Source of the DNA: an uncultured Ruminococcus sp.
GTDB lineage: Bacteria; Bacillota_A; Clostridia; Oscillospirales; Ruminococcaceae
NCBI GenBank assembly: GCA_947303535.1
Contig: CAMYYQ010000021.1
Location: forward strand, 1 to 9,227
Reading direction: 5' to 3'
Length of the DNA: 9,227 bases
The notes under the pieces were generated by a model. It was given only the letters and a program-made list of their open reading frames with translations, did not search any database and had not been told where the DNA came from. The first letter of the stretch is position 1, and every line of letters starts with the position of its first letter. Shown here one piece after another: positions 1 through 9,227 of this stretch. The position numbers were made by a program, and so were the translations under genes.

Positions 1-1
1 G

Positions 2-349
2 TTCAAGTACAATTACAGCAAAAAGCTCAAGGACATTCTCGTTGATATGGGTATGAAAGATGCTTTCGCTGATAAAGTTGCCGACTTCTCAAAGATAAAC
101 GATCTTACAGTTGACGGTGCACAGCCTCTTTATATAGGCGATGTTCTTCACAAGACAAAGATCGAGGTAACAGAAAAGGGAACAAAGGCTGCTGCTGTAA
201 CAGCTGTAATGATGATGGCAGCAACTGCTGTACAGCCTGTAAAGAAGATAATAAGAATTGATCTCAACAGACCTTTCGTATACATGATCGTTGACAAGAA
301 CAACGTACCTGTATTCATCGGTGCTGCAACACAGCTCGAAGAAAAATAA
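2..349 (+). CDS. Serpin (serine/cysteine protease inhibitor), C-terminal part
   Basis: The 5' end is cut off by the window edge, leaving 115 codons and the TAA stop; the ATG at 47 is internal. The translation follows the serpin C-terminus: a segment with DMGMKDAF and ADFSKI, then LYIGDVLHKTKIEVTEKGT (breach and strand s5A leading to the reactive-loop hinge), an Ala-rich hinge (KAAAVTA), the exposed loop (VMMMAATAVQPV), then LNRPFVYMIVDKNNVPVFIGA, matching the conserved NRPF and s4B/s5B end. Serpins trap proteases as suicide substrates. Counting 15 residues from the hinge Gly puts P1 at Ala in MMMAA-TAV, with an error of one or two residues. Small and hydrophobic loop residues suggest an elastase-like or subtilisin-like target, which is inference. 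No dockerin follows the serpin fold; the N-terminus, where a signal peptide would be, lies outside the window. The family call is firm; cellular location is unknown. Confidence 0.93.
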   Translation, partial: FKYNYSKKLKDILVDMGMKDAFADKVADFSKINDLTVDGAQPLYIGDVLHKTKIEVTEKGTKAAAVTAVMMMAATAVQPVKKIIRIDLNRPFVYMIVDKNNVPVFIGAATQLEEK

Positions 350-390
350 AGCTGTTTAAAATACGCAGAAAACATGATCACATATATAAA

Positions 391-426
391 ATACCGTCGG
401 GACAATGTTCTCGGCGGTATTTTTCT
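391..426 (+). terminator. Rho-independent terminator of the serpin gene
   Basis: An 11-bp stem is formed by 391-401 (ATACCGTCGGG) and 410-420 (CTCGGCGGTAT), with two G-T wobbles and an 8-nt loop, followed by TTTTTCTT. It lies 42 bases after the serpin stop. The T-rich tail runs into the -35 element of the next promoter, so the two units are separate but back to back. Confidence 0.88.
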
Positions 427-454
427 TGCTTTTAAGCCTAAAACAGTGTATAAT
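426..454 (+). promoter_or_regulatory. Sigma-A-like promoter for the first sigma/membrane-protein operon
   Basis: TTGCTT at 426-431, a 17-base spacer, and TATAAT at 449-454. Transcription would start near 461, giving a leader of about 110 nt before the sigma-factor start at 570. The -10 is perfect and the -35 keeps the TTG core. No separate ECF-type promoter was recognised, so autoregulation by the encoded sigma factor is not shown by the sequence. Confidence 0.6.
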
Positions 455-519
455 ATAATTAAAACAAAAAAATAATTCTAAACCTGTTACGTTTATGTTC
501 CAAAGGGAGAATAGATATT

Positions 520-564
520 ATGAAAGCCAACATGATGCATCTTAAAGCTTTACATAAGAGGTGA
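520..564 (+). CDS. Possible 14-residue leader peptide (MKANMMHLKALHKR)
   Basis: A short frame starts at ATG 520, nine bases after a reasonable SD (AAGGGAGA at 503-510), and stops at TGA 562-564. Its stop lies inside the AGAGGTGA SD of the sigma-factor gene, five bases before that start codon. A ribosome finishing this frame would sit on the sigma-factor initiation region, the geometry of translational coupling or of a control leader. The peptide is basic, with no known family and no run of one amino acid that would mark an attenuator. It could be chance; position and SD are the only support. Confidence 0.3.
   Translation: MKANMMHLKALHKR
557..564 (+). promoter_or_regulatory. SD that fixes the first sigma-factor start
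   Basis: AGAGGTGA lies about six bases before ATG 570. An in-frame GTG at 561 would extend the protein by three residues, but it sits inside this SD and so cannot be served by it. ATG 570 is therefore preferred. Confidence 0.75.
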
Positions 565-569
565 CCCAT

Positions 570-1136
570 ATGACACATGAAGAATATAAAAAGGCTTCCG
601 ACCGATCAAAGGAAGAAGCACAGCGTATAATATTCAATGAGTATTTCAAATATGTTTATACTATAGTTTTCAGCCGTCTGCGCAGCTGCGCCAGCCGTGA
701 GGATATTGAAGAATGTGTAGGAGATGTTTTTGCTGATGTATACATACATTATGACAGCAGCAAGGCTACCGGCGACAATATCTCAGGCTTTATCGGAACA
801 GTTGCCCGCAACAAGGCTGCCGATATGTACAGAAAGCTGACACGAAAAAGATTTACATTTGTTTCTGTTGATGACGAAGATGTTCCCGAACAGGAAGCAC
901 CCGAAAATACAGAAGCAGACTATGAGAAAAAAGAACTAAGAAGCAGCCTTATGAACTGTATATCACTTCTCGGCGAACCCGATTCAACTATTATAATGCA
1001 GAAATACTTCTTCATGCGAAGCTCACAGGAGATAGCAGATAAAGTGTCATTGACTCCCGAAGCTGTAAGAATGAGATGCAGCCGCGCTTTGAAAAAGCTC
1101 AGGGAAAAACTCACCGCTATGAACATATCACTTTAA
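570..1136 (+). CDS. ECF-type RNA polymerase sigma factor (first operon)
   Basis: The 188-residue product has the two-domain layout of ECF (group 4) sigma factors. Region 2 spans about residues 18-94, with the core-binding stretch DIEECVGDVFADVY (45-58) and the -10-recognition helix GFIGTVARNKAADMYRK (73-89). An acidic linker (100-120) follows. Region 4 spans about 123-184, with a helix-turn-helix at SSQEIADKVSLTPEAVRMR (151-169) and the basic recognition end ALKKLREK. The length is usual for the class. It would direct RNA polymerase to a small regulon when released from its partner. The downstream gene starts 13 bases after the stop, and its SD (AAAGGAGG, 1135-1142) overlaps the TAA, so the two are almost certainly co-transcribed. 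That gene encodes a membrane protein with anti-sigma topology. The target promoter motif cannot be read from this window. Confidence 0.92.
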   Translation: MTHEEYKKASDRSKEEAQRIIFNEYFKYVYTIVFSRLRSCASREDIEECVGDVFADVYIHYDSSKATGDNISGFIGTVARNKAADMYRKLTRKRFTFVSVDDEDVPEQEAPENTEADYEKKELRSSLMNCISLLGEPDSTIIMQKYFFMRSSQEIADKVSLTPEAVRMRCSRALKKLREKLTAMNISL

Positions 1137-1149
1137 AGGAGGTACAGTT

Positions 1150-2715
1150 ATGAACGATAAGGAGTTTGATCTTACAATGCTTGAAAATGCAGACAATGAA
1201 ACAATAAAACAAATCGCTGAAAACTGTCCTGCTTCCGATGAAGAAATGGAGAGGATGTTCGCTATGAGCAGAAAGATATATAATGAAAGAACCAAAGAAA
1301 GTAATAATAAAGATAATATCGAAGTATCAGGCGTAGAGCAGTACAGAAAGCCGATATGGCAGAAATTCACAGCTGTTGCGGCTGCACTGGTACTCACAGG
1401 CGGCGTTGTAGCAGGCGGAATGTATTTTATGAAGAACAAGAACAGCTTCAATACTAACGATCCTGTCCCTGTTGCAACATCACCTTCAACAAGCCCGTCA
1501 ACTCAGCCTGCTTCACTTGTTGAGGAAGGCTGTCCCTTCGGAGATATCTCCAATGATAAGGTACGTATAACATATGCCGCTATCACCCCCGGAGTTGTTG
1601 ATGTAAAACAGGATTTTGTAAAACAGCTTGCTGAAAACTTCAACAAGGGCAAATGGACAGAATTATCCGAAGCCAAACCGTTTGAAGGTGAATATTCAAC
1701 TCTTTTCATCTATAACAACGGAGATCCATATCAGCTCGACTGCTGTCTTTACAACACTGAAAACGGCAAGGGCGCATATGTAAAATTCAACAACGGCAAA
1801 GATCTAAAATATTACACAGGCGATGAATTTGTTGTAAAAGCAGTTCAGGGGCTTTACTCTTATGACTTTGATATGTCCGAAATCATCAAACTTGACGAAA
1901 CAGACTATGACGATCTTATCCATAAGGTATGGGCAGATCAGAAAGCTCAGACAAATGCCGAAGAAGTACCACTTCCTGAGTTTAGCAGTCAGAAAGATGA
2001 GCTTGCAGAGGCACAGCTCAAGGATATGGGTCTGAAAGTTGAAATAGTTAAGATCGCAGATATCACAGTAAAACCAGGCTATGTAATAAAGACAGAGCCT
2101 GAAGCAGGTACAAAACTTGCCGCAGGTTCAACTGTTAAACTTTACGTAAGCTCAGATGATACTTCCGAAGCATCAAATAATGACAACAACACAGTCTCAG
2201 CAGGAAATACAGAAAATGCAGAGCTTATCGCAAAGGCACAGAATTTCTACGATCAGGCTATCGAAGCCGACTTTAAATTCGGACGTTCAGCTCCGCAGTA
2301 CTTCAATATTGATACTATGAACTGCTTTACAGGTCCTGACGGTCGCACTCTTTCCTATGTATACGATATAACTCTTGACGAATTACGCTCTCAGTACCAC
2401 GAAACATTCAGCGACAGATATGCCGAAAACGATGCAACTATAGACAAATGGTATTCAATAAATGACGGTAAGTTATGCTGGATTACAGGCAATGCAGGTG
2501 TTGACCTTTACCTTGAAAGTGCAAAGGTTACAGAAGTACAGCGTCAGACAGACGACGAGATATTCTTTACAGTTGAAAGACATTACAGCGATTTCCGTCA
2601 TGTTGATATCGACGGCAGCTATGAACCACACACAGAAACAGATGACTTTTCAGTAGTTATCCAGCCTGACGGCTCATGGAAGGTGGGTAAATTCAACAAT
2701 CCTAAGCCCAACTGA
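1150..2715 (+). CDS. Membrane-anchored putative anti-sigma/sensor protein with PASTA domain
   Basis: A 521-residue protein with a strong SD (AAAGGAGG) seven bases before the ATG. Residues 1-72 form a hydrophilic, probably cytoplasmic head with acidic N-terminal helices. Residues 73-94 are one hydrophobic helix (AVAAALVLTGGVVAGGMYF), with KNK after it. A Pro/Ser/Thr-rich stalk follows (103-121). Residues 122-265 are an unrecognised alpha/beta-looking region. Residues 273-335 match a PASTA domain: VPLPEF, a helix with AEAQLKDMGLKVEIV, then PGYVIKTEPEAGTKLAAGS and TVKLYVS. After a Ser/Asn linker, residues 355-516 resemble the IseA/YoeB-type domain (TLDELRSQYHETFSDRYAEN, later LYLESAKVTEV and DGSWKVGKF); this is a weaker call. 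PASTA domains elsewhere bind peptidoglycan fragments. The position after an ECF sigma gene and the topology suggest a transmembrane anti-sigma factor sensing the cell wall, but no zinc-type (HxxxCxxC) anti-sigma motif is visible and that role is inferred. Confidence 0.85.
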   Translation: MNDKEFDLTMLENADNETIKQIAENCPASDEEMERMFAMSRKIYNERTKESNNKDNIEVSGVEQYRKPIWQKFTAVAAALVLTGGVVAGGMYFMKNKNSFNTNDPVPVATSPSTSPSTQPASLVEEGCPFGDISNDKVRITYAAITPGVVDVKQDFVKQLAENFNKGKWTELSEAKPFEGEYSTLFIYNNGDPYQLDCCLYNTENGKGAYVKFNNGKDLKYYTGDEFVVKAVQGLYSYDFDMSEIIKLDETDYDDLIHKVWADQKAQTNAEEVPLPEFSSQKDELAEAQLKDMGLKVEIVKIADITVKPGYVIKTEPEAGTKLAAGSTVKLYVSSDDTSEASNNDNNTVSAGNTENAELIAKAQNFYDQAIEADFKFGRSAPQYFNIDTMNCFTGPDGRTLSYVYDITLDELRSQYHETFSDRYAENDATIDKWYSINDGKLCWITGNAGVDLYLESAKVTEVQRQTDDEIFFTVERHYSDFRHVDIDGSYEPHTETDDFSVVIQPDGSWKVGKFNNPKPN

Positions 2716-2776
2716 TCACACGCATTTTTACTCCCTCCTTAAAGTTGAATTTATATATTCTGATAATTCGGCAAAA

Positions 2777-2807
2777 TAAAAGACTCCTCATACAGAGGAG
2801 TCTTTTA
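2777..2807. terminator. Bidirectional terminator between the PASTA protein and esterase genes
   Basis: A perfect 13-bp stem is formed by 2777-2789 (TAAAAGACTCCTC) and 2795-2807 (GAGGAGTCTTTTA), with a 5-base loop. Each strand has a T4 run at its 3' side, so it can end both convergent transcripts. The esterase stop codon (minus strand, 2790-2788) lies within the hairpin, at the loop junction. Confidence 0.92.
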
Positions 2808-3900
2808 TTAATATCTTTCTCAGAGCAACAACATCATAAACATCAATTATCTCATCTTTATTGATATCGTATTTTTCAAGTATTACATCACTGTTTGCTT
2901 CTGCGGAAGAACCGAGAATGAACTTCTGGAGCTTTACAAGGTCGGAGACATTATATTTGTTTTCGTCAGGCTGCTGAACAGTCGGAACATTTTTCAGATA
3001 CGAATCAATAAGCTCAGCCCAGTACTCTCCCATAAGCTTATAGCCCTTATTATTCGGGTGAACACCGTCCATGAGCTGAGTTTTTACATCTGTGATAACA
3101 CTTGAAACATCGGCATTTCGCAGCTGAGGACCTTTCAGCGAGCTTTCATCGGGACTCTGAGCATCTTTGTCCATATCCCAGCTGCTTAGTATCCTGACGC
3201 TCCTCATTTTCTGCACGACACTTGTAACATTTGCATTATAAGAAAGCAAGGTCTTATGTATATTTTCCTCCGCAACATCATCGGGATAGTTAGTCTGCCA
3301 GTCCGCAGAATGACGGTAATTGCCGAACCAGTCGTAAACACCGCTGCGGTTAGGATCAACATCGGGGATAGTAGTCACAAAAAGTGTGGAGCTTTCGGGA
3401 ATATTCCCCATAATATACTCAATAAGCTCTTGAAGCCTTTTATGTGCATTATCCATGTCATGATTGTCTATAACATCATTCGTACCTATCTGCAAGATAA
3501 CAATATCAGGCTCGCACTTGGCAAGACAGTCCGTAGACTTCAGCGTTTCAAGGATACCGTTTCTGCCCGGATACTCCTTTATAGCGTAGCCGCTGTAGCC
3601 CGTATTGTCATCATCATATGTAAAACTCTCCCCTGTTTCGCTGTCAGTAAACTCAGCCATGAAGTTATTTCCCTTAGAGCCTACCATATCAACGGAATAT
3701 CCCTTTTTAGTAAGTTCATTGTACAGGTACTTCCTGTAAGAGCCAGAAACTCCGTAGCCGTCGGTTATGGAGTCACCAATAGCCATGATCTTTATCTTAT
3801 CAGTTCCCTGCTCACTCAGTGCGCAGGCTTTTTTACTTGTAATATCAATCCCCGTAAAACAAACAGCCATAGCTGCCAGAACAGATACTATTTTACGCAT
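2788..3900 (-). CDS. Secreted SGNH/GDSL esterase, CE3-like, with C-terminal dockerin
   Basis: 370 residues from ATG 3900. A signal peptide (MRKIVSVLAAMAVCF...) has a likely signal peptidase I site after KKACA (about residue 27). The catalytic domain (36-305) carries the SGNH blocks: GDSITDGYG with nucleophile Ser44, TGYSG with Gly104, IGTNDV with Asn141, and DGVHPNNKGY with Asp278/His281. SYRKYLYNEL...VDMVGS after block I is typical of carbohydrate esterase family 3 (acetylxylan esterases), so removal of acetyl groups from xylan is the likely reaction. Residues 313-367 are a dockerin-like module: NVSDLVKLQKFILG, then YDINKDEIIDVYDVVALRKIL. The first repeat lacks a recognisable DxNxDG calcium loop, while the second keeps a divergent one. 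The dockerin would anchor the enzyme to a cohesin. ATG 3900 is chosen because AAAAGGAG lies eight bases upstream; the earlier in-frame GTG 3909 and ATG 3906 overlap or crowd that site. It is convergent with the PASTA operon and divergent from the second sigma operon. Confidence 0.9.
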   Translation of the reverse strand: MRKIVSVLAAMAVCFTGIDITSKKACALSEQGTDKIKIMAIGDSITDGYGVSGSYRKYLYNELTKKGYSVDMVGSKGNNFMAEFTDSETGESFTYDDDNTGYSGYAIKEYPGRNGILETLKSTDCLAKCEPDIVILQIGTNDVIDNHDMDNAHKRLQELIEYIMGNIPESSTLFVTTIPDVDPNRSGVYDWFGNYRHSADWQTNYPDDVAEENIHKTLLSYNANVTSVVQKMRSVRILSSWDMDKDAQSPDESSLKGPQLRNADVSSVITDVKTQLMDGVHPNNKGYKLMGEYWAELIDSYLKNVPTVQQPDENKYNVSDLVKLQKFILGSSAEANSDVILEKYDINKDEIIDVYDVVALRKILIKDSSV

Positions 3901-3908
3901 TTTCATCA

Positions 3909-3916
3909 CTCCTTTT
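3909..3916 (-). promoter_or_regulatory. SD that fixes the esterase start
   Basis: On the minus strand AAAAGGAG (3916-3909) is eight bases before ATG 3900 but only two before ATG 3906, and it overlaps GTG 3909. The spacing favours ATG 3900, which also gives a standard signal-peptide start (MRK). Confidence 0.75.
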
Positions 3917-3926
3917 GGTTTTTATA

Positions 3927-3955
3927 ATTTTACCATATAAGAATAAACTTTTCAA
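3927..3955 (-). promoter_or_regulatory. Sigma-A-like promoter of the esterase gene
   Basis: Minus strand: TTGAAA (3955-3950), a 17-base spacer, and TAAAAT (3932-3927). The start point would be near 3920, giving a leader of about 20 nt that contains the SD. No inverted-repeat operator was seen here. Confidence 0.6.
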
Positions 3956-4009
3956 CCGAATAAATAACCGATGAAGTTGATTTTTTACAGGAAATATACC
4001 TCCCTGTTA

Positions 4010-4038
4010 TTGCTTTATTTCCGCCCATATGTTATAAT
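4010..4038 (+). promoter_or_regulatory. Extended -10 sigma-A-like promoter of the second sigma operon
   Basis: TTGCTT at 4010-4015, a 17-base spacer, and TATAAT at 4033-4038, preceded by TG with one base between (TGTTATAAT). The -35 and spacing copy those of the first sigma operon. The predicted start near 4045 leaves a leader of about 180 nt, which holds a 7-bp hairpin (4084-4090 with 4102-4108, including one wobble) and no T run. The whole gene-free stretch 3901-4225 contains only this promoter, the divergent esterase promoter, the SD sites, this hairpin and the small repeat at 4137. Confidence 0.68.
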
Positions 4039-4136
4039 GATATTATAATAAGTATGTGTACTCAATAACGGCTTTAAGGCAGTTTCGCCGCGTATCACAT
4101 TCGGCGGACAAACAATTATATTTCACAACAAAATTT

Positions 4137-4154
4137 GTTCATAAAAAGTTCATA
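4137..4154 (+). repeat. Direct repeat GTTCATA, 11-base period
   Basis: GTTCATA occurs at 4137-4143 and again at 4148-4154, separated by four A's. The period is about one helical turn, as in some tandem operators. It lies in the leader of the second sigma gene, about 100 bases after the predicted transcription start. In such AT-rich DNA it may be chance. Confidence 0.3.
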
Positions 4155-4225
4155 GATTGTTTACATTTTTCTTTGCACATTCTGCCTGCGTGAACAGTTA
4201 TACATTAGTGAAGGGAGGTTTCAGC

Positions 4226-4684
4226 GTGTCAGTGGACATAAAAGATCAATACGATAAGATATTCCGCTACTGTTATTACAAGATTCACGACCGGGATAAA
4301 GCTGAAGATCTGACACAAGAGACCTTTCTCCGTTTTCTTGAAAGCTCTCATTACCACGATATGGGTAAGGAGCTCCACTATCTGTACACTATCGCAGGTA
4401 ATCTGTGTGCAGATGCCTATCATCGGAAGAAAACTGAAGAGCTTTCGGAAGATATGAGCGACGGAAAAGATTATGAGGACTTCATTCTCACAAATGTGGC
4501 ACTCGGCAACGCCATCAAAAAATTAACGGCCGAGGAACAGGAGATAATCCTGCTGCGTTACGTAAATGAAGTACCAATAGGCGTGCTGAGTGAGCTATAC
4601 GGGGTATCACGGTTCAAGATGAGCCGCATGATTAAGCAGATACTCACACGTCTGAAAAAAGATTTTAAAGGATCGGAGGGCTGA
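4226..4684 (+). CDS. ECF-type RNA polymerase sigma factor (second operon)
   Basis: A 152-residue product from GTG 4226, chosen because GGGAGG (4213-4218) lies seven bases upstream. The open frame extends back to TTG 4157, but the added residues are not sigma-like and no SD precedes them. Region 2 (about 7-70) includes YDKIFRYCYYKIHDRDKAEDLTQETF in the core-binding position and LYTIAGNLCADAYHRKK as the -10-recognition helix. Region 4 (about 95-147) includes LTAEEQEIILLRYVNEVPI and a helix-turn-helix GVLSELYGVSRFKMSRMI ending in basic residues. It is short even for an ECF factor, with a brief acidic linker. The next gene starts three bases after the stop, so translation is probably coupled. The two sigma factors in this window differ clearly in sequence, so they are not recent duplicates. 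Confidence 0.9.
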   Translation: MSVDIKDQYDKIFRYCYYKIHDRDKAEDLTQETFLRFLESSHYHDMGKELHYLYTIAGNLCADAYHRKKTEELSEDMSDGKDYEDFILTNVALGNAIKKLTAEEQEIILLRYVNEVPIGVLSELYGVSRFKMSRMIKQILTRLKKDFKGSEG

Positions 4685-4690
4685 AGCTTG
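4675..4690 (+). promoter_or_regulatory. SD and TTG start of the dockerin-bearing membrane protein
   Basis: GGAGG at 4675-4679 lies eight bases before TTG 4688, inside the end of the sigma gene. The next candidate, ATG 4700, is 20 bases from this SD and has only a weak AAAAGA near it. TTG 4688 is therefore preferred. Together with the GTG of the sigma gene, both members of this operon use non-ATG starts, which may hold expression low. Confidence 0.6.
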
Positions 4691-6658
4691 AATAAAAGAA
4701 TGAAAAAAGCTGTTCAGGAATCATTCAGATTCCCTGAGACCAAGCACAAAAATGAATTTCTTATGCAGGCTGAGGTCATCTCCGCTCAGGAAATGCAGCG
4801 GAAAAAGAGATATCCTGTTGTATTCAGACTGTCCGCCGCAGCTGCGGCTTGCGGAATGGCGGTAGGTTTATGGGCACATCTCGATAACCGCTCTAAACTA
4901 AGCGAAAATGATTTTCGTGGCGAGCCTGCGATCGTTACGACAACGGTCGGTAATGGTGAAGATCAGCCGATCACTACTGCTATCGGGAACGGCGAAACAG
5001 CAAGTGCAACAACTGTAAACGTCAGCGCAGTCACAACGGTCAGAACAGCGGCTGCAAAGACAACAACGGTAACCTCGGGACAAGCTCTTACTGCACTGGG
5101 AGCAAGATCTCGCAGCACTACTGCAAGCCGTTCCGACCACAGCAGAGTAACAACGAATACAAGCAGCAATCCAGCTGCTACTGAATATACGATCACAAAC
5201 GAAGAAAAAACTTATTATATGAAGCATCTCGGCGAGTTCGCCTCTGCATTTGTAATGGGAGGAAATGCCATTCCTATGGCATCAGCCGCCGAATACAAGT
5301 TACCGTATACAAGAATGTATCCGGGTGAGAACGACATATTCGCAGATATAGAAGCAAACCTTGAGATTGTTGATATAAGCGGCGACGGCGTTTTCAATAT
5401 GAGAGACTGCTATGATTTGTTCTGCTACAGCCATTATTATCAGGTATCCGATACCGTTAATTACAATTGCAGAAAATACGGCGTCTCAAAGACAGACGAC
5501 GAGGAAAATAATACTCCCTCGTGGCTCAGTTATTCAGAGCTTATAAGATATCTTCTTATCAAGGAAGGTCCAAAGCCTGAATTTTTCAGTAAAGAAGTTT
5601 ATCCGTACCGCGATACTGTAAACGGCACATATGCTCCTTTTGCATCTGATCTGTTCGTTTCGGCAGTATTCAGCGAAAGCGACCACCTTATGGCAGGTTA
5701 TCCGCTTATCTCTGCCGCGTACAGGAACAAGCTCATCGACCTTGACGTAAATGCTGACGGACTCTTTGATATAAATGATTATATCGACTATTTCGTCTGC
5801 ACCACTAATTTAAGCAAATCAAAGCAGGACAGCGGAGAATTCATACCGTGGGAAAGACCGGAAGCTACTGTTCAGCGCTGCAATGAGCTGCGCAGCAAAG
5901 CCGAAGCGATCACCCATGACGACTGGCTCGGTAATTACTTCGTATGGTGTCTGCTTGAATATACACCATTCCGCTCGGAATATGCAGAAGCAAGCTATTA
6001 CAACAGCATTATACCTGAGGCGTATTCAAAATACTACAGTCCCGAAAGATATTTTGAGGAGTATTGCGAAACTACGGGAATTGAGGAATATCTGTTCACA
6101 TTCAATACCCAGAAGTTCAACAGCTGCTTCGATGAATACTGCAAGGACGTCGCCGCAGGCAGAAGATCAGCTCCTGATATAAACCTTGACGGAGTTATAG
6201 ACCGCAAGGACTATGAAGCTTCCGATATCTATTTCGGTGATATCCTTAACGGAAGAAACGCTTCACAAAGCGAGCTCTCTTCCCGTGTATGGAACAATAT
6301 CACATCAAACTGTGATTTTAACAATAACGGCACAAGCGGTGATGTCTATGACATCATGATAACCCAGATGTACGTACTTATCAAGACAGGCGATAGCAGT
6401 CCAAACTCAGGCGGTTCTTATAATTACGACAGCAATATGGGTATCCTGTGGGATATGAACAATTCACGCAGCGGTGACGTTAACGGCGACGGCGAGGTAG
6501 ATATGGCAGATGCTGTTCTTATTATGCAGCACATTGCTAATCCGGATAAATTCCAGCTCACAGACTCAGCTATGTACAATGCTGATGTTGAAGGCGACTG
6601 CGACGGACTTAATTTAAACGATGCAAGTGCTATCCAGCGCAGACTTCTTGATCTGTGA
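4688..6658 (+). CDS. Membrane-anchored putative anti-sigma/sensor protein ending in a dockerin
   Basis: 656 residues. A basic cytoplasmic head of about 45 residues (MNKRMKKAVQESFRFPETK...) precedes one hydrophobic helix (about 46-63, VFRLSAAAAACGMAVGLWA). A long Thr/Ser/Ala-rich stalk (82-168) follows. The exterior (170-570) is not a known enzyme; it is mostly helical with many aromatics and holds four EF-hand-like loops: DISGDGVFNMRD (229-240), DVNADGLFDIND (353-364), DINLDGVIDRKD (497-508) and a divergent DFNNNGTSGDVY (543-554). The end (595-656) is a canonical type I-like dockerin: DVNGDGEVDMAD then ADAVLIMQHIAN, and a second repeat with DVEGDCDGLNLND and ASAIQRRLLDL. Dockerins plug into cohesins on scaffold proteins, usually to mount secreted enzymes. 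Here the dockerin is on a single-pass protein in an operon with an ECF sigma factor, which suggests a transmembrane regulator sensing cohesin or scaffold. Anti-sigma activity is inferred from topology and context; plain surface anchoring is the alternative. Confidence 0.86.
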   Translation: MNKRMKKAVQESFRFPETKHKNEFLMQAEVISAQEMQRKKRYPVVFRLSAAAAACGMAVGLWAHLDNRSKLSENDFRGEPAIVTTTVGNGEDQPITTAIGNGETASATTVNVSAVTTVRTAAAKTTTVTSGQALTALGARSRSTTASRSDHSRVTTNTSSNPAATEYTITNEEKTYYMKHLGEFASAFVMGGNAIPMASAAEYKLPYTRMYPGENDIFADIEANLEIVDISGDGVFNMRDCYDLFCYSHYYQVSDTVNYNCRKYGVSKTDDEENNTPSWLSYSELIRYLLIKEGPKPEFFSKEVYPYRDTVNGTYAPFASDLFVSAVFSESDHLMAGYPLISAAYRNKLIDLDVNADGLFDINDYIDYFVCTTNLSKSKQDSGEFIPWERPEATVQRCNELRSKAEAITHDDWLGNYFVWCLLEYTPFRSEYAEASYYNSIIPEAYSKYYSPERYFEEYCETTGIEEYLFTFNTQKFNSCFDEYCKDVAAGRRSAPDINLDGVIDRKDYEASDIYFGDILNGRNASQSELSSRVWNNITSNCDFNNNGTSGDVYDIMITQMYVLIKTGDSSPNSGGSYNYDSNMGILWDMNNSRSGDVNGDGEVDMADAVLIMQHIANPDKFQLTDSAMYNADVEGDCDGLNLNDASAIQRRLLDL

Positions 6659-6700
6659 CAATAAATAAAGCTATCACATTCCTCATATAAATGATATTTG

Positions 6701-6739
6701 AAAAGTACTCCCACGGTCAAGGCTGTGGGAGTACTTTTT
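6701..6739 (+). terminator. Terminator of the second sigma operon
   Basis: A perfect 14-bp stem is formed by 6701-6714 (AAAAGTACTCCCAC) and 6725-6738 (GTGGGAGTACTTTT), with a 10-base loop and a T5 run, 42 bases after the stop. The A4 run at its left end means it could also act on the opposite strand. Confidence 0.92.
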
Positions 6740-6786
6740 ATTGTTCAACTGAAAAATTCGGGTGGCGGAACGCCGTCCCCTACTAC

Positions 6787-6820
6787 TAAAAAAGCCACAG
6801 CTTTACTTAGCTGTGGCTTT
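6787..6820 (-). terminator. Terminator of the PadR/DUF1700/DUF4097 operon
   Basis: A perfect 12-bp stem is formed by 6791-6802 (AAAGCCACAGCT) and 6809-6820 (AGCTGTGGCTTT), with a 6-base loop. On the minus strand it is followed by a T6 run, so it suits the leftward operon ending at 6833, only 12 bases away. Confidence 0.9.
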
Positions 6821-6832
6821 ATTAATGCTATA

Positions 6833-7033
6833 TCATGGCTGTTTTGGCTCATCTTTTTCTTCTGCACGTTCAAGTGCCGAGATGACAGCGCAGAGCTTTT
6901 TCCTGCTTCCGCTGTCAAACTCAATGGTGACAACAGTATCATCACCGATAGGTAGAGTGTCCGTTACCGTACCGTCTCCGAAAAGCCGATGATGAACTCT
7001 GTTGCCTATTTTTATTTCAGTATGGTCAAGCAT
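6833..7033 (-). CDS. Small Tudor-like protein resembling the PcrA/UvrD C-terminal domain
   Basis: 66 residues, starting six bases after the stop of the DUF4097 gene and ending 12 bases before the operon terminator. The core (residues 8-50) reads KIGNRVHHRLFGDGTVTD, then VVTIEFDSGSRKKL and AVISALE. This matches the pattern GDRVxHxxFGxGTV...VxFxxxGxKKL...xLE at the C-terminus of PcrA/UvrD helicases, a small beta-barrel of the Tudor type that binds RNA polymerase in PcrA. Here it stands alone with an acidic/basic tail. The SD is weak (GAGAGA about nine bases upstream, within the previous gene's end), which fits translational coupling. The fold is a reasonable guess from motif pattern; no function is assigned. 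Its presence at the end of an envelope-related operon is unexplained. Confidence 0.7.
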   Translation of the reverse strand: MLDHTEIKIGNRVHHRLFGDGTVTDTLPIGDDTVVTIEFDSGSRKKLCAVISALERAEEKDEPKQP

Positions 7034-7039
7034 TGCAAC

Positions 7040-7939
7040 TTATCTCTCGTTGTAGTAAACATCTACCGAGCCAATGCCATGATCTATATCCATTTTATAC
7101 TTTCCGCCGTTTTTGGAGAAATCTGTCTCAGGGTTTGTAAGTCTGAATGTCATCTCGCCAACACCGCCGTCAGCATCTATATTTCCGTTGATAGTACCCT
7201 TAAACTCAAACTGTCCTACACCCTGATCCAGATCAAGACCGCCGAGTGTGCTTGAAAGAATGTTTATCTCACCTGCTCCGCCGTCGATCTTCAGCTTTTC
7301 CTTGCAGTCCATAGAATTTATGTTCAGCTGACCTGCTCCGCAGTCGATATCGCCGCTGTTACAAGTAATATCTGTAAATGTTACTTCCCCTGCACCGCAC
7401 TCCATTTTGAAAGTACCGCACTCTATATCTGAAGCAGTTGTCTCACCTGCGCCCATGTCAAGAATAAAGCTTGCATACTCCTTTTCAGGAATAGCTACCT
7501 TAACAGTAGCACTGTTATCGCCCCAAAGGTGAAAACTTGGCATAGTGATAAAGCCTATTCTCTTCTTTAAACATGAAGTTCTGAAAGTTGTTCCCTCTAC
7601 CTTCGCCTCAAATTCATCAGGAATATTTTCAGCATCAATATGTATCATCTTGTCACTGCTCTTTGTGATGATAAGATCACCGTAAGGAATATCAAGGTCT
7701 ATTTTATTTACTGTATCAGAGTTGAATGTCTGATGAATGTCCTTGAGCTTGAAATACTTATCCTTGTCGTGTCCGTTATAGAGAATAACACCGAGAACAA
7801 GCAGTATTATTCCAATAACAACAAATACCAGCCATACAAGTCCGCCGCCCGATCTCTTCTTCTGAGGAGCCTGCGGTGTCTGCGGTGCCTGAGGATACGG
7901 TGTACCCATGTTCATATCCATATTCATATTCTCATTCAT
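7040..7939 (-). CDS. DUF4097-family membrane-anchored beta-solenoid protein
   Basis: 299 residues. A Met/Asn-rich and Pro/Gln-rich N-terminus (1-30) precedes one transmembrane helix (about 34-54), then an exported repetitive domain. From residue 161 a motif of the form [D/E]xGxG[E/Q] recurs at 161, 180, 199, 219, 238, 257 and 286: DMGAGE, ECGAGE, DCGAGQ, DGGAGE, DQGVGQ, DGGVGE, DHGIGS. The 19-20 residue period fits the turns of a right-handed beta-helix, as expected for the DUF4097 family. The last interval is longer, at 29. The start ATG 7939 overlaps the end of the DUF1700 gene by eight bases, and GGGGG lies eight bases upstream. PadR-DUF1700-DUF4097 is a recurrent Firmicute gene set usually linked to envelope homeostasis; the molecular activity is not known. 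Confidence 0.88.
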   Translation of the reverse strand: MNENMNMDMNMGTPYPQAPQTPQAPQKKRSGGGLVWLVFVVIGIILLVLGVILYNGHDKDKYFKLKDIHQTFNSDTVNKIDLDIPYGDLIITKSSDKMIHIDAENIPDEFEAKVEGTTFRTSCLKKRIGFITMPSFHLWGDNSATVKVAIPEKEYASFILDMGAGETTASDIECGTFKMECGAGEVTFTDITCNSGDIDCGAGQLNINSMDCKEKLKIDGGAGEINILSSTLGGLDLDQGVGQFEFKGTINGNIDADGGVGEMTFRLTNPETDFSKNGGKYKMDIDHGIGSVDVYYNER

Positions 7940-8603
7940 TTACTTTTCCCCCTTTTTTGAAAAGACCGCCTATCCAGTTGCATACGCTCTTTATACCTCT
8001 GCCCATTGCTGGTATTGCCTTGTTCAGAACAGGCTTGCACATAAGCAATACCAGACCTGTTATTATGAAACCGCCGCCGAGGAGCATAAGTCCTACGCTT
8101 GGTACTTCAAATACTGCTGCGATACCGCCTGCGATCAATGCGATACCTGTTACAACAAATGCAACTACAAGAGATAATGCTGTAACGATAAGTGCAAATA
8201 ATACTGAAACAACAACTATGAGTATCGGAAGCCATATCGGGAATGTTATTACTGCAAGGAAAATTTTAAGTCCCCAGTTGCCTGACTTAGGCTGTACAGG
8301 CGCTCCCTGATATGGATACTGATACTGCGGCACAGGACCCGGCATCGGACCTGCTGCGAATGCAGGTGCAGGCTTAGGATCAAAAAACTCAGGTCCGCTT
8401 ATCTGTATACCGCTCTCACGGAGAATATTTACAGCCACATCTTCAGGTGAACCCATCGAAGTTGCTGTCTCCTCCTCTTTCCCGAACCCTGCGTCAAGAA
8501 ATACCTCTTCGTAGTAAGTAAGGGCATCATTTATATCATCGGAATTCATACCGCCTTTTTCCAGGCAGTTTCTCAATTTTGTAAGAAATTCAAGCTTGTT
8601 CAT
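7932..8603 (-). CDS. DUF1700 (HAAS-domain) membrane protein
   Basis: 223 residues from ATG 8603. Residues 1-64 are the HAAS/DUF1700 head: MNKLEFLTKLRNCLE, then DDINDALTYYEEVFLDAG and MGSPEDVAVNIL, matching the family's LGSPEDVA signature. A Pro/Tyr/Gln-rich linker (75-107) follows, then about three hydrophobic segments (111-133, 134-162, 165-189) and a basic tail. The frame can start at ATG 8621, but GAGGGAG (8619-8613) is nine bases before ATG 8603 and the family usually begins at MNKLEFL-like sequence. It overlaps the PadR gene by 14 bases and the DUF4097 gene by eight, so the three are one translational unit. In this gene set the head is thought to pair with PadR or the envelope protein; that is family context, not shown here. 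Confidence 0.87.
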   Translation of the reverse strand: MNKLEFLTKLRNCLEKGGMNSDDINDALTYYEEVFLDAGFGKEEETATSMGSPEDVAVNILRESGIQISGPEFFDPKPAPAFAAGPMPGPVPQYQYPYQGAPVQPKSGNWGLKIFLAVITFPIWLPILIVVVSVLFALIVTALSLVVAFVVTGIALIAGGIAAVFEVPSVGLMLLGGGFIITGLVLLMCKPVLNKAIPAMGRGIKSVCNWIGGLFKKGGKVNE

Positions 8604-8922
8604 TCTCTTCAGCTCCCTCATCCATTAAAATACTGTCGATCTTCTTTTTGTGATTACGCCATTCTTCTCTGTATTCCTCCAGAGAAGTTTTCCCCTGTAA
8701 CGTTAGTCGGTAATATCGGCGATTCCTGCCCATATACTCCTTATCATACGTTTCAAGCATATCGCCTTTCTGCAATCGTCTGAGTACAGGATAAAGTGTG
8801 GATTCTGATATATCCACAGCCTTTCGCAGATACTGCGTTATCTCATACCCGTATGTGTCATTGCGCTGAACTATGGAAAGCACCATAGCGTCAAGCAATC
8901 CTGCATTAATTGTAAAACCCAT
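8590..8922 (-). CDS. PadR-family transcriptional regulator
   Basis: 110 residues with the short PadR-like (PF03551-type) winged helix: LLDAMVLSIVQRNDTYGYEI (9-28), ISESTLYPVLRRLQKGDML (38-56) as the recognition region, the wing RRYYRLTLQGK (68-78), and a C-terminal dimerisation helix rich in Glu, Arg and Lys. Start ATG 8922 is chosen because AAAGGAG (8936-8930) lies seven bases upstream; a longer frame to 8961 would put this SD inside the gene. It heads the operon and follows a consensus promoter covered by a perfect palindrome, so it probably represses its own operon. Many PadR proteins respond to small lipophilic or antimicrobial compounds; the inducer here is unknown. Confidence 0.93.
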   Translation of the reverse strand: MGFTINAGLLDAMVLSIVQRNDTYGYEITQYLRKAVDISESTLYPVLRRLQKGDMLETYDKEYMGRNRRYYRLTLQGKTSLEEYREEWRNHKKKIDSILMDEGAEENEQA

Positions 8923-8929
8923 ATACTTT

Positions 8930-8936
8930 CTCCTTT
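8930..8936 (-). promoter_or_regulatory. SD that fixes the PadR start
   Basis: AAAGGAG on the minus strand (8936-8930) is seven bases before ATG 8922. The in-frame ATG 8940 lies just upstream of this SD, so it cannot use it. Confidence 0.75.
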
Positions 8937-8975
8937 CCATATAGTATTTTATGGTTTGCAATATTTGCTTTCTGA

Positions 8976-9000
8976 CAATATTATACGCCGTATAATATTG
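8976..9000. promoter_or_regulatory. Perfect 25-bp palindrome, likely PadR operator
   Basis: Arms CAATATTATAC (8976-8986) and GTATAATATTG (8990-9000) are exact reverse complements around a 3-base centre, GCC. The palindrome contains the whole -10 and most of the spacer of the operon promoter, so a bound dimer would block RNA polymerase. Further partial half-sites lie outside it: CAATATT at 8959-8965 and CAATATTAT at 9011-9019. That it is bound by the adjacent PadR is inference from position. Confidence 0.8.
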
Positions 9001-9008
9001 TTTGTCAA
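8980..9008 (-). promoter_or_regulatory. Perfect-consensus sigma-A promoter of the PadR operon
   Basis: On the minus strand TTGACA (9008-9003), a 17-base spacer (9002-8986) and TATAAT (8985-8980). Both hexamers and the spacing match the consensus exactly. The start point would be near 8973, about 50 nt before the PadR start. A promoter this strong normally needs tight control, which agrees with the overlapping palindrome. Confidence 0.9.
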
Positions 9009-9120
9009 TACAATATTATGATTTTTACAACGATTTGTATATCTGCACAATCAGAAATCCTATTTTTATACTTCTCACTGTTAGTTTTATACTAAGACAA
9101 CAGTAAAAGCGCATATAAAA

Positions 9121-9153
9121 GCCCGCAAGCAGTTACATAAACCGCTTACGGGC
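9121..9153 (-). terminator. Terminator of the gene entering from the right edge
   Basis: An interrupted stem: 9121-9125 (GCCCG) with 9149-9153 (CGGGC), AAGC with GCTT, and GTT with AAC, separated by single mismatches around a 5-base loop. On the minus strand it is followed by TTTTATA. It lies just downstream of a minus-strand stop at 9166. Confidence 0.72.
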
Positions 9154-9165
9154 GTTAAAACTATA

Positions 9166-9227
9166 TCATGTATTTTCAATATAAATGACGAATTCCATTT
9201 CGGAAGTCTCTTCCAGCCGTCTGACAT
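9166..9227 (-). CDS. C-terminal end of an unidentified protein (partial)
   Basis: The last 19 codons of a minus-strand frame enter from the window edge and end at TGA 9168-9166; the product ends VRRLEETSEMEFVIYIENT. It is preferred over the other two minus frames because one of those reads through the terminator and the other gives an unlikely composition. The hairpin at 9121-9153 fits as its terminator. Too short to assign a family. Confidence 0.5.
   Translation of the reverse strand, partial: VRRLEETSEMEFVIYIENT

Follow-up and report, generated by a model that had tools for sequence, protein, structure and literature searches.

A dockerin-bearing putative membrane anti-sigma factor paired with an ECF sigma factor gene in Ruminococcus

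Why should a membrane protein, encoded directly behind the gene of an extracytoplasmic function (ECF) sigma factor, end in a dockerin? This question is raised by a stretch of 9,227 nucleotides from an uncultured Ruminococcus sp. (assembly GCA_947303535.1, contig CAMYYQ010000021.1, positions 1 to 9,227), which we call the window. Strain FD-1 has 223 dockerin proteins (PMC5429695), and the control of Ruminococcus dockerin proteins is described as 'yet to be understood' (PMC4081043); a family of sigma-linked dockerin sensors would be a direct candidate for that control and would allow cellulosome occupancy to be tested as a signal. On strong circumstantial evidence from sequence, we take it as very probable that this membrane protein is the anti-sigma factor of the adjoining ECF factor. 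That the state of the cohesins is its signal input is a tentative proposal, which we doubt a little more than we trust. As an explanation of the whole locus, a sigma/anti-sigma pair that reads dockerin-cohesin state is the best that we have, and one towards which we lean slightly.

The first gene (4226..4684; this and all features of the pair lie on the forward strand) encodes 152 residues with Pfam matches to Sigma70_r2 (39.5 bits) and Sigma70_r4 (28.5 bits), each above its cut-off, and an NCBIfam match to sigma70-ECF (57.1 bits against a cut-off of 42.9): a short protein with sigma-70 regions 2 and 4, as an ECF sigma factor is. After a gap of 3 bp, and with a TTG start, follows the gene of its partner (4688..6658), a membrane protein of 656 residues with a dockerin. 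The predicted layout of this partner, with a cytoplasmic head, a membrane helix and an exterior, is that of a membrane anti-sigma factor. The head (residues 1-44; 4688..4819) is basic; it is marked out by alignment and by the occurrence of the same head type beside ECF genes elsewhere, and our model (structure models here are of single chains) predicts two helices in it, at low confidence. The membrane helix (residues about 45-65; 4820..4882) is clear by hydrophobicity and is modelled, again at low confidence, as helix 45-65. A Thr/Ser-rich stalk (residues 66-172; 4883..5203) belongs to a region (66-203) that is disordered in the model, and beyond it the exterior (residues about 204-570) is helical and well modelled, with a mean predicted local distance difference test score of 86.5 when predicted alone. 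At E values up to 1, Pfam finds nothing in the partner but Dockerin_1, and NCBIfam gives no match. Pfam, hydrophobicity and the model thus bear out the anatomy given by the first-pass annotation, namely an ECF gene and, 3 bp on, a protein of head, helix, stalk, exterior and dockerin.

Is this pairing conserved? A protein search returned the window's own protein and eight further ones at 57-91% identity, nine in all. The closest named genome is that of R. flavefaciens YAD2003 (L001, 92% identity), which makes an R. flavefaciens-like source probable. In named genomes the pair with its 3-bp gap recurs at L001-L004, even though the partner at L004 (R. flavefaciens ND2009) is only about 30% identical. 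We then took a profile search through 100 Ruminococcus genomes, scoring about 12 candidates per genome, so that counts are lower bounds, and obtained at least 64 places where the match reaches beyond the dockerin (rows merged by hand); 61 of the 64 listed places were retrieved and analysed, with upstream genes judged from open reading frame (ORF) listings and Pfam. Fifty-two of these 61 relatives, spread over 38 genomes by hand count, have a head and membrane helix, eight are head-less and secreted, and one (L080) is cut by a contig end. An ECF-like ORF lies immediately upstream of all 52 headed relatives, as the gene of an anti-sigma factor adjoins that of its cognate ECF factor, and of none of the eight head-less ones, which start with a signal peptide (judged by inspection and simple rules rather than by a dedicated predictor). 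The upstream ORFs, 53 with the window's, all match Sigma70_r2, and 58 of the 62 family proteins match Dockerin_1. The first-pass annotation had proposed that homologues without a neighbouring sigma gene would speak against the pairing; eight such homologues do exist, but they fit a link between head and sigma factor because it is the head and membrane helix that are missing from them.

What had been described as a single pair is a large multi-paralogue family. One genome (G003) holds at least four ECF-dockerin pairs (L067, L126, L127 and L132) among the part of its 43 sigma-70 places that was inspected. In 396 genomes sampled from the wider taxonomic family, with two candidates scored per genome, full-length members were found only in G001 and G004, and one further genome (G469) matched the profile in its first part; the ECF-dockerin family looks limited to the genus, on a thin sample. 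Two of the 53 upstream ECF frames are broken beside an intact dockerin partner, at L110 and at L070 (the same place as L005), by assembly error or decay.

The behaviour of the head suggests to which of its neighbours it belongs. The ECF factors fall into four types of 24, 16, 7 and 6 members (the window is counted and belongs to the second). Identity between types is about 20%, and each type has its own head. Over 51 pairs, the two broken ECFs being excluded, head identity follows sigma identity with a Pearson correlation of 0.84, against 0.54 for the exterior; such co-variation of head with sigma is what is looked for in an anti-sigma factor, and the published figures, calculated on distances where ours are on identities, are 0.82 for class I pairs and 0.5-0.6 for controls (PMC7406223). 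Comparison of the four head types by HHalign gave weak matches, the best (E1 with E2) at 86% probability over 28 columns, and we handle them as separate types, their unrelatedness being unproven. On a tree of the exteriors the ECF type changes at least 15 times, where the minimum possible is 4 and the mean of shuffled trees 33.0 (L080 was entered here as head-less though it is contig-cut), and exteriors of the same genome pair across ECF types in G028 (L119 with L119b) and G044 (L071 with L110). The window's head type occurs at 58 places in 48 of the 100 genomes, with an ECF gene upstream at all 30 loci analysed. Ten of these 30 are short ORFs (377-453 residues, one contig-cut) with other exteriors and no dockerin match; at the long ORFs the retrieved locus ends before the dockerin would be reached. 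Since the same head sits on other exteriors, and heads track the sigma factor where exteriors switch type, the head appears to be a sigma-linked module and the exterior an exchangeable one, which is the signature of anti-sigma factors.

These observations bear upon a rival explanation, in which the partner would serve to fix scaffoldins to the membrane and have no more than its operon in common with the sigma gene. Scaffoldins would indeed be anchored by a dockerin that is mounted in the membrane, and adjacency alone is no proof of regulation; but heads follow sigma type more closely than exteriors do, and each of the ten short ORFs, with exteriors of other kinds, has its ECF gene upstream, so that we consider an anchor very improbable. 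That the partner is an anti-sigma factor, as first proposed, has by contrast become very probable, through the 52 of 52 paired relatives, the co-variation of head and sigma, and the 30 of 30 loci of the head type.

The exchange can be seen at close quarters in L119 (G028:C49, 2989-8535), where two ECF-dockerin pairs of different ECF types adjoin and their exteriors are sisters on the tree, which may reflect exchange or conversion of the exterior inside one genome. In G003, many further ECF genes (L128-L145) have behind them genes for proteins with one membrane pass, a Thr/Ser stalk and an exterior that varies from one to the next, a numerous group of putative sensors that are as yet undescribed.

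What, then, might such an anti-sigma factor sense? The dockerin (residues 596-654; 6473..6649), with two calcium loops and helices, has the dockerin fold and resembles R. flavefaciens group 1, its best solved relatives being dockerins of that group in complex with ScaB and ScaA cohesins (5m2o, 5m2s). Those belong to two enzymes, a carbohydrate esterase and a glycoside hydrolase (PMC5429695); here the module is on a sigma-linked membrane protein. The positions reported as most important for cohesin contact are Ile39, Val43, Gln47, Gln83 and Leu87, with changes of 39 to Val or Met on record (PMC5429695), and the window has Met, Val, Gln, Gln and Leu there, so that the canonical C-terminal dockerin first described keeps the residues reported for group 1 contact. 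Gln47 is present in all 53 headed members, Gln83 in 52, Val, Ile or Ala at 43 in 44, and Leu87 in 33; when positions 39, 43, 47 and 83 are tested together, 43 of the 53 pass. Cohesin genes were found in all ten genomes tested. With its contact residues kept, the window's dockerin likely binds ScaA/ScaB cohesins.

We propose that the short head would hold the ECF sigma factor at the membrane, and that the dockerin would plug into ScaA/ScaB-type cohesins that also receive enzymes. Whether the dockerin is plugged in or displaced may then alter the state or the proteolysis of the membrane protein, and sigma factor so released could induce its own operon and other genes. Alternatively, the sigma/anti-sigma pair may be real and the dockerin a tether only, parking the sensor on the cell's own cellulosome, with the EF-hand-like helical exterior sensing released sugar, peptide or calcium. 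The exterior is large and well folded in the model, and four EF/dockerin-type loops in it (residues 229-240, 5372..5407; 353-364, 5744..5779; 497-508, 6176..6211; and 543-555, 6314..6352; the last two within a weak dockerin-like match at about 491-566) keep their first and last Asp in 59-62 of the 62 family members; moreover it is the exterior, not the dockerin alone, that has moved between ECF types. We nevertheless judge a mere tether unlikely.

The best conserved block upstream of the ECF gene, in an alignment of seven loci, is the promoter-like element TTTACA-N9-GCACAT-N15-AGTTA (4160..4200), also recovered by pattern search. In ten genomes the pattern TTTACAN{7,10}CACATN{13,16}GTTA has 26 matches, against two for its reversed control, and nine of the 26 lie directly before an ECF gene of the window's type (nine of ten genomes; none in G044); autoregulation of the ECF operon would be the natural reading of the element. 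The other 17 stand at other places and have a different core, CCGCACAT-N14/15-CGTTA. At least seven of them precede dockerin-serpin genes (by sequence; Pfam was checked in three), and six are no more than 3 kb from a paralogous ECF pair that has the window's head type. For these reasons we do not assign the 17 to the window's sigma factor. An earlier pattern with two mismatches gave 19 matches (five of them the ECF gene's own) against three in the control, and several of the rest fell inside genes.

The serpin genes raise the possibility of a protease alarm: foreign proteases would cut the exposed stalk and exterior, and the sigma factor thereby released would call up protective proteins such as dockerin-serpins. 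Release of this general kind has a precedent in RsiV, where it begins with site-1 cleavage by signal peptidase (PMC6066255), and dockerin-serpin genes with a related promoter element adjoin a paralogous ECF gene whose partner has the same head type; a serpin gene is present in the window too (2-346). Against this, the serpin gene next to the window's operon is without this element, and the core of the serpin elements is not that of the window; an alarm of this sort seems improbable here. As an observation in its own right, seven loci (L205, L206, L208, L212, L220, L221 and L226) have genes for a signal peptide, dockerin and serpin behind the related element, several of them beside the paralogous ECF pair, and these are a candidate regulon that would guard the cellulosome from proteases.

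To return to a sigma/anti-sigma pair that reads dockerin-cohesin state, a number of results count against it. The strict pattern, over the ten genomes, finds no target of the window's sigma factor beyond its own operon. The head has no Pfam match, no solved relative that we could find and a low-confidence model, and the HxxxCxxC motif of class I zinc anti-sigma domains occurs in none of the 53 heads; many class I domains lack this motif, so that its absence does not exclude class I, to which we do not assign them. Within ECF types the gap between head and exterior correlations shrinks (0.90 against 0.84 in E1, 0.87 against 0.68 in E2), and the exterior, too, correlates with sigma more than chance would allow (Mantel p 0.001), as linked genes co-vary anyway. 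Ten of the 53 headed members do not pass the joint test of contact residues. Loose proximity of ECF and dockerin genes in G003 (eight of 43 places downstream, seven of 43 in the upstream control) is not significant and was rejected as evidence, for which only immediate adjacency, homology and module behaviour were counted.

Among known systems the nearest in design is SigI/RsgI of Acetivibrio (Clostridium) thermocellum, also a cellulosome maker, in which the sigma gene is in an operon with a single-pass anti-sigma factor that bears an extracellular sensor module (PMC6056542). A SigI factor is, however, defined by the lack of region 4 and by a SigI C-domain, and the sensors there are carbohydrate-binding or enzyme-like modules (PMC6056542), whereas here an ECF factor with region 4 is joined to a dockerin. 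Its sigma factor having region 4 and its partner no match to the RsgI N-terminal domain in Pfam or NCBIfam, the window's pair falls outside SigI/RsgI, and the first reading of it as an ECF rather than a SigI system holds; RsgI receptors are said to be used by Acetivibrio-type makers only (PMC11557425). The pairs sigmaV/RsiV and CnrH/CnrY share the operon, cytoplasmic head, membrane helix and exterior, and two helices of the class II CnrY wrap its ECF factor (PMC7406223) as the window's head is modelled, at low confidence, as two helices. For the window's head we found no sequence relation, however, and the exterior and dockerin differ. In the open-licence text searched we came upon no account of a membrane protein with a dockerin and a linked ECF gene: in the main text of the FD-1 dockerin inventory (PMC2930009) the words 'sigma', 'transmembrane' and 'membrane' never occur, nor do 'sigma' and 'transmembrane' in that of PMC4081043. 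The system would appear to be of the ECF/membrane anti-sigma kind, in an undescribed dockerin-bearing form.

At the column of the window's Met178, most of the retrieved relatives read ATG AAA AAR, with a Shine-Dalgarno sequence a short spacer ahead of it (GAAAGGAG, or GAAGGGAG/GAAGGAGG in those whose amino acids are not the same) and a signal peptide of the Sec type running on from it; the head-less relatives start at or near this point. Anti-Shine-Dalgarno pairing of -7 kcal/mol or better occurs at 45 of 54 internal sites; of the remaining 807 in-frame ATGs 68 show it, and several of those are true gene starts. The Arg-Ser within Glu-Arg-Ser ahead of the site uses the codons AGG-AGY in 31 of 32 instances, and the Arg-Ser pairs elsewhere in the same proteins do so in five of 137. 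Taken jointly, the marks of an internal start are present in 43 of 54 sequences (the window, the 52 headed relatives and L080) and in none of 28 ECF partners without a dockerin; L126 and L127 show them too, and the R. flavefaciens ND2009 gene in L004 is one paralogue with an internal start of this kind. Kinship inflates these counts, though many members are distant paralogues. This suggests that in most headed paralogues one gene gives a secreted twin as well as a membrane sensor, the twin, if the internal start is real, being a secreted competitor. Median hydrophobicity in full-length paralogues is 1.55 for the inner signal peptide, little short of the 1.83 of the membrane helix, which raises a question of topology. 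The window itself has only a vestige of the internal start and signal peptide (residues 178-200; 5219..5287), without a ribosome-binding site; its site, like those of L066, L067 and L068, is degraded, and its gene therefore probably makes one product. It is conceivable, though we are more sceptical of this than of the simpler proposal above, that a two-product gene family reads cellulosome state: membrane sensor and secreted copy would both compete with enzymes for the same cohesins, so that free sites would be gauged against an internal standard, the cassette having moved onto at least four head/ECF types and the window's clade having lost the internal start and kept the membrane form only.

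The remainder of the window holds further genes. A second ECF gene (561-1136) is followed after 13 bp by that of a PASTA-domain membrane protein whose head is of another type (the pair spans 561-2715, forward strand); this pair is also found in L001 (ECF part), L003 and L143. The serpin gene at 2-346 (forward strand) is a 3′ end, and the full gene in L001 and L003 has a dockerin-like stretch ahead of its serpin part. A GDSL-type esterase gene (2788-3909, reverse strand) is divergent from the ECF operon and encodes a weak dockerin-like C-terminus (E=0.056, below the cut-off). Beyond the dockerin gene, genes for a PadR regulator, a HAAS-domain protein and a DUF4097 (LiaG-like) protein stand in a row (7040-8961, reverse strand), and this trio follows the dockerin gene in L001-L005 too, in opposite orientation in L004 and L005.
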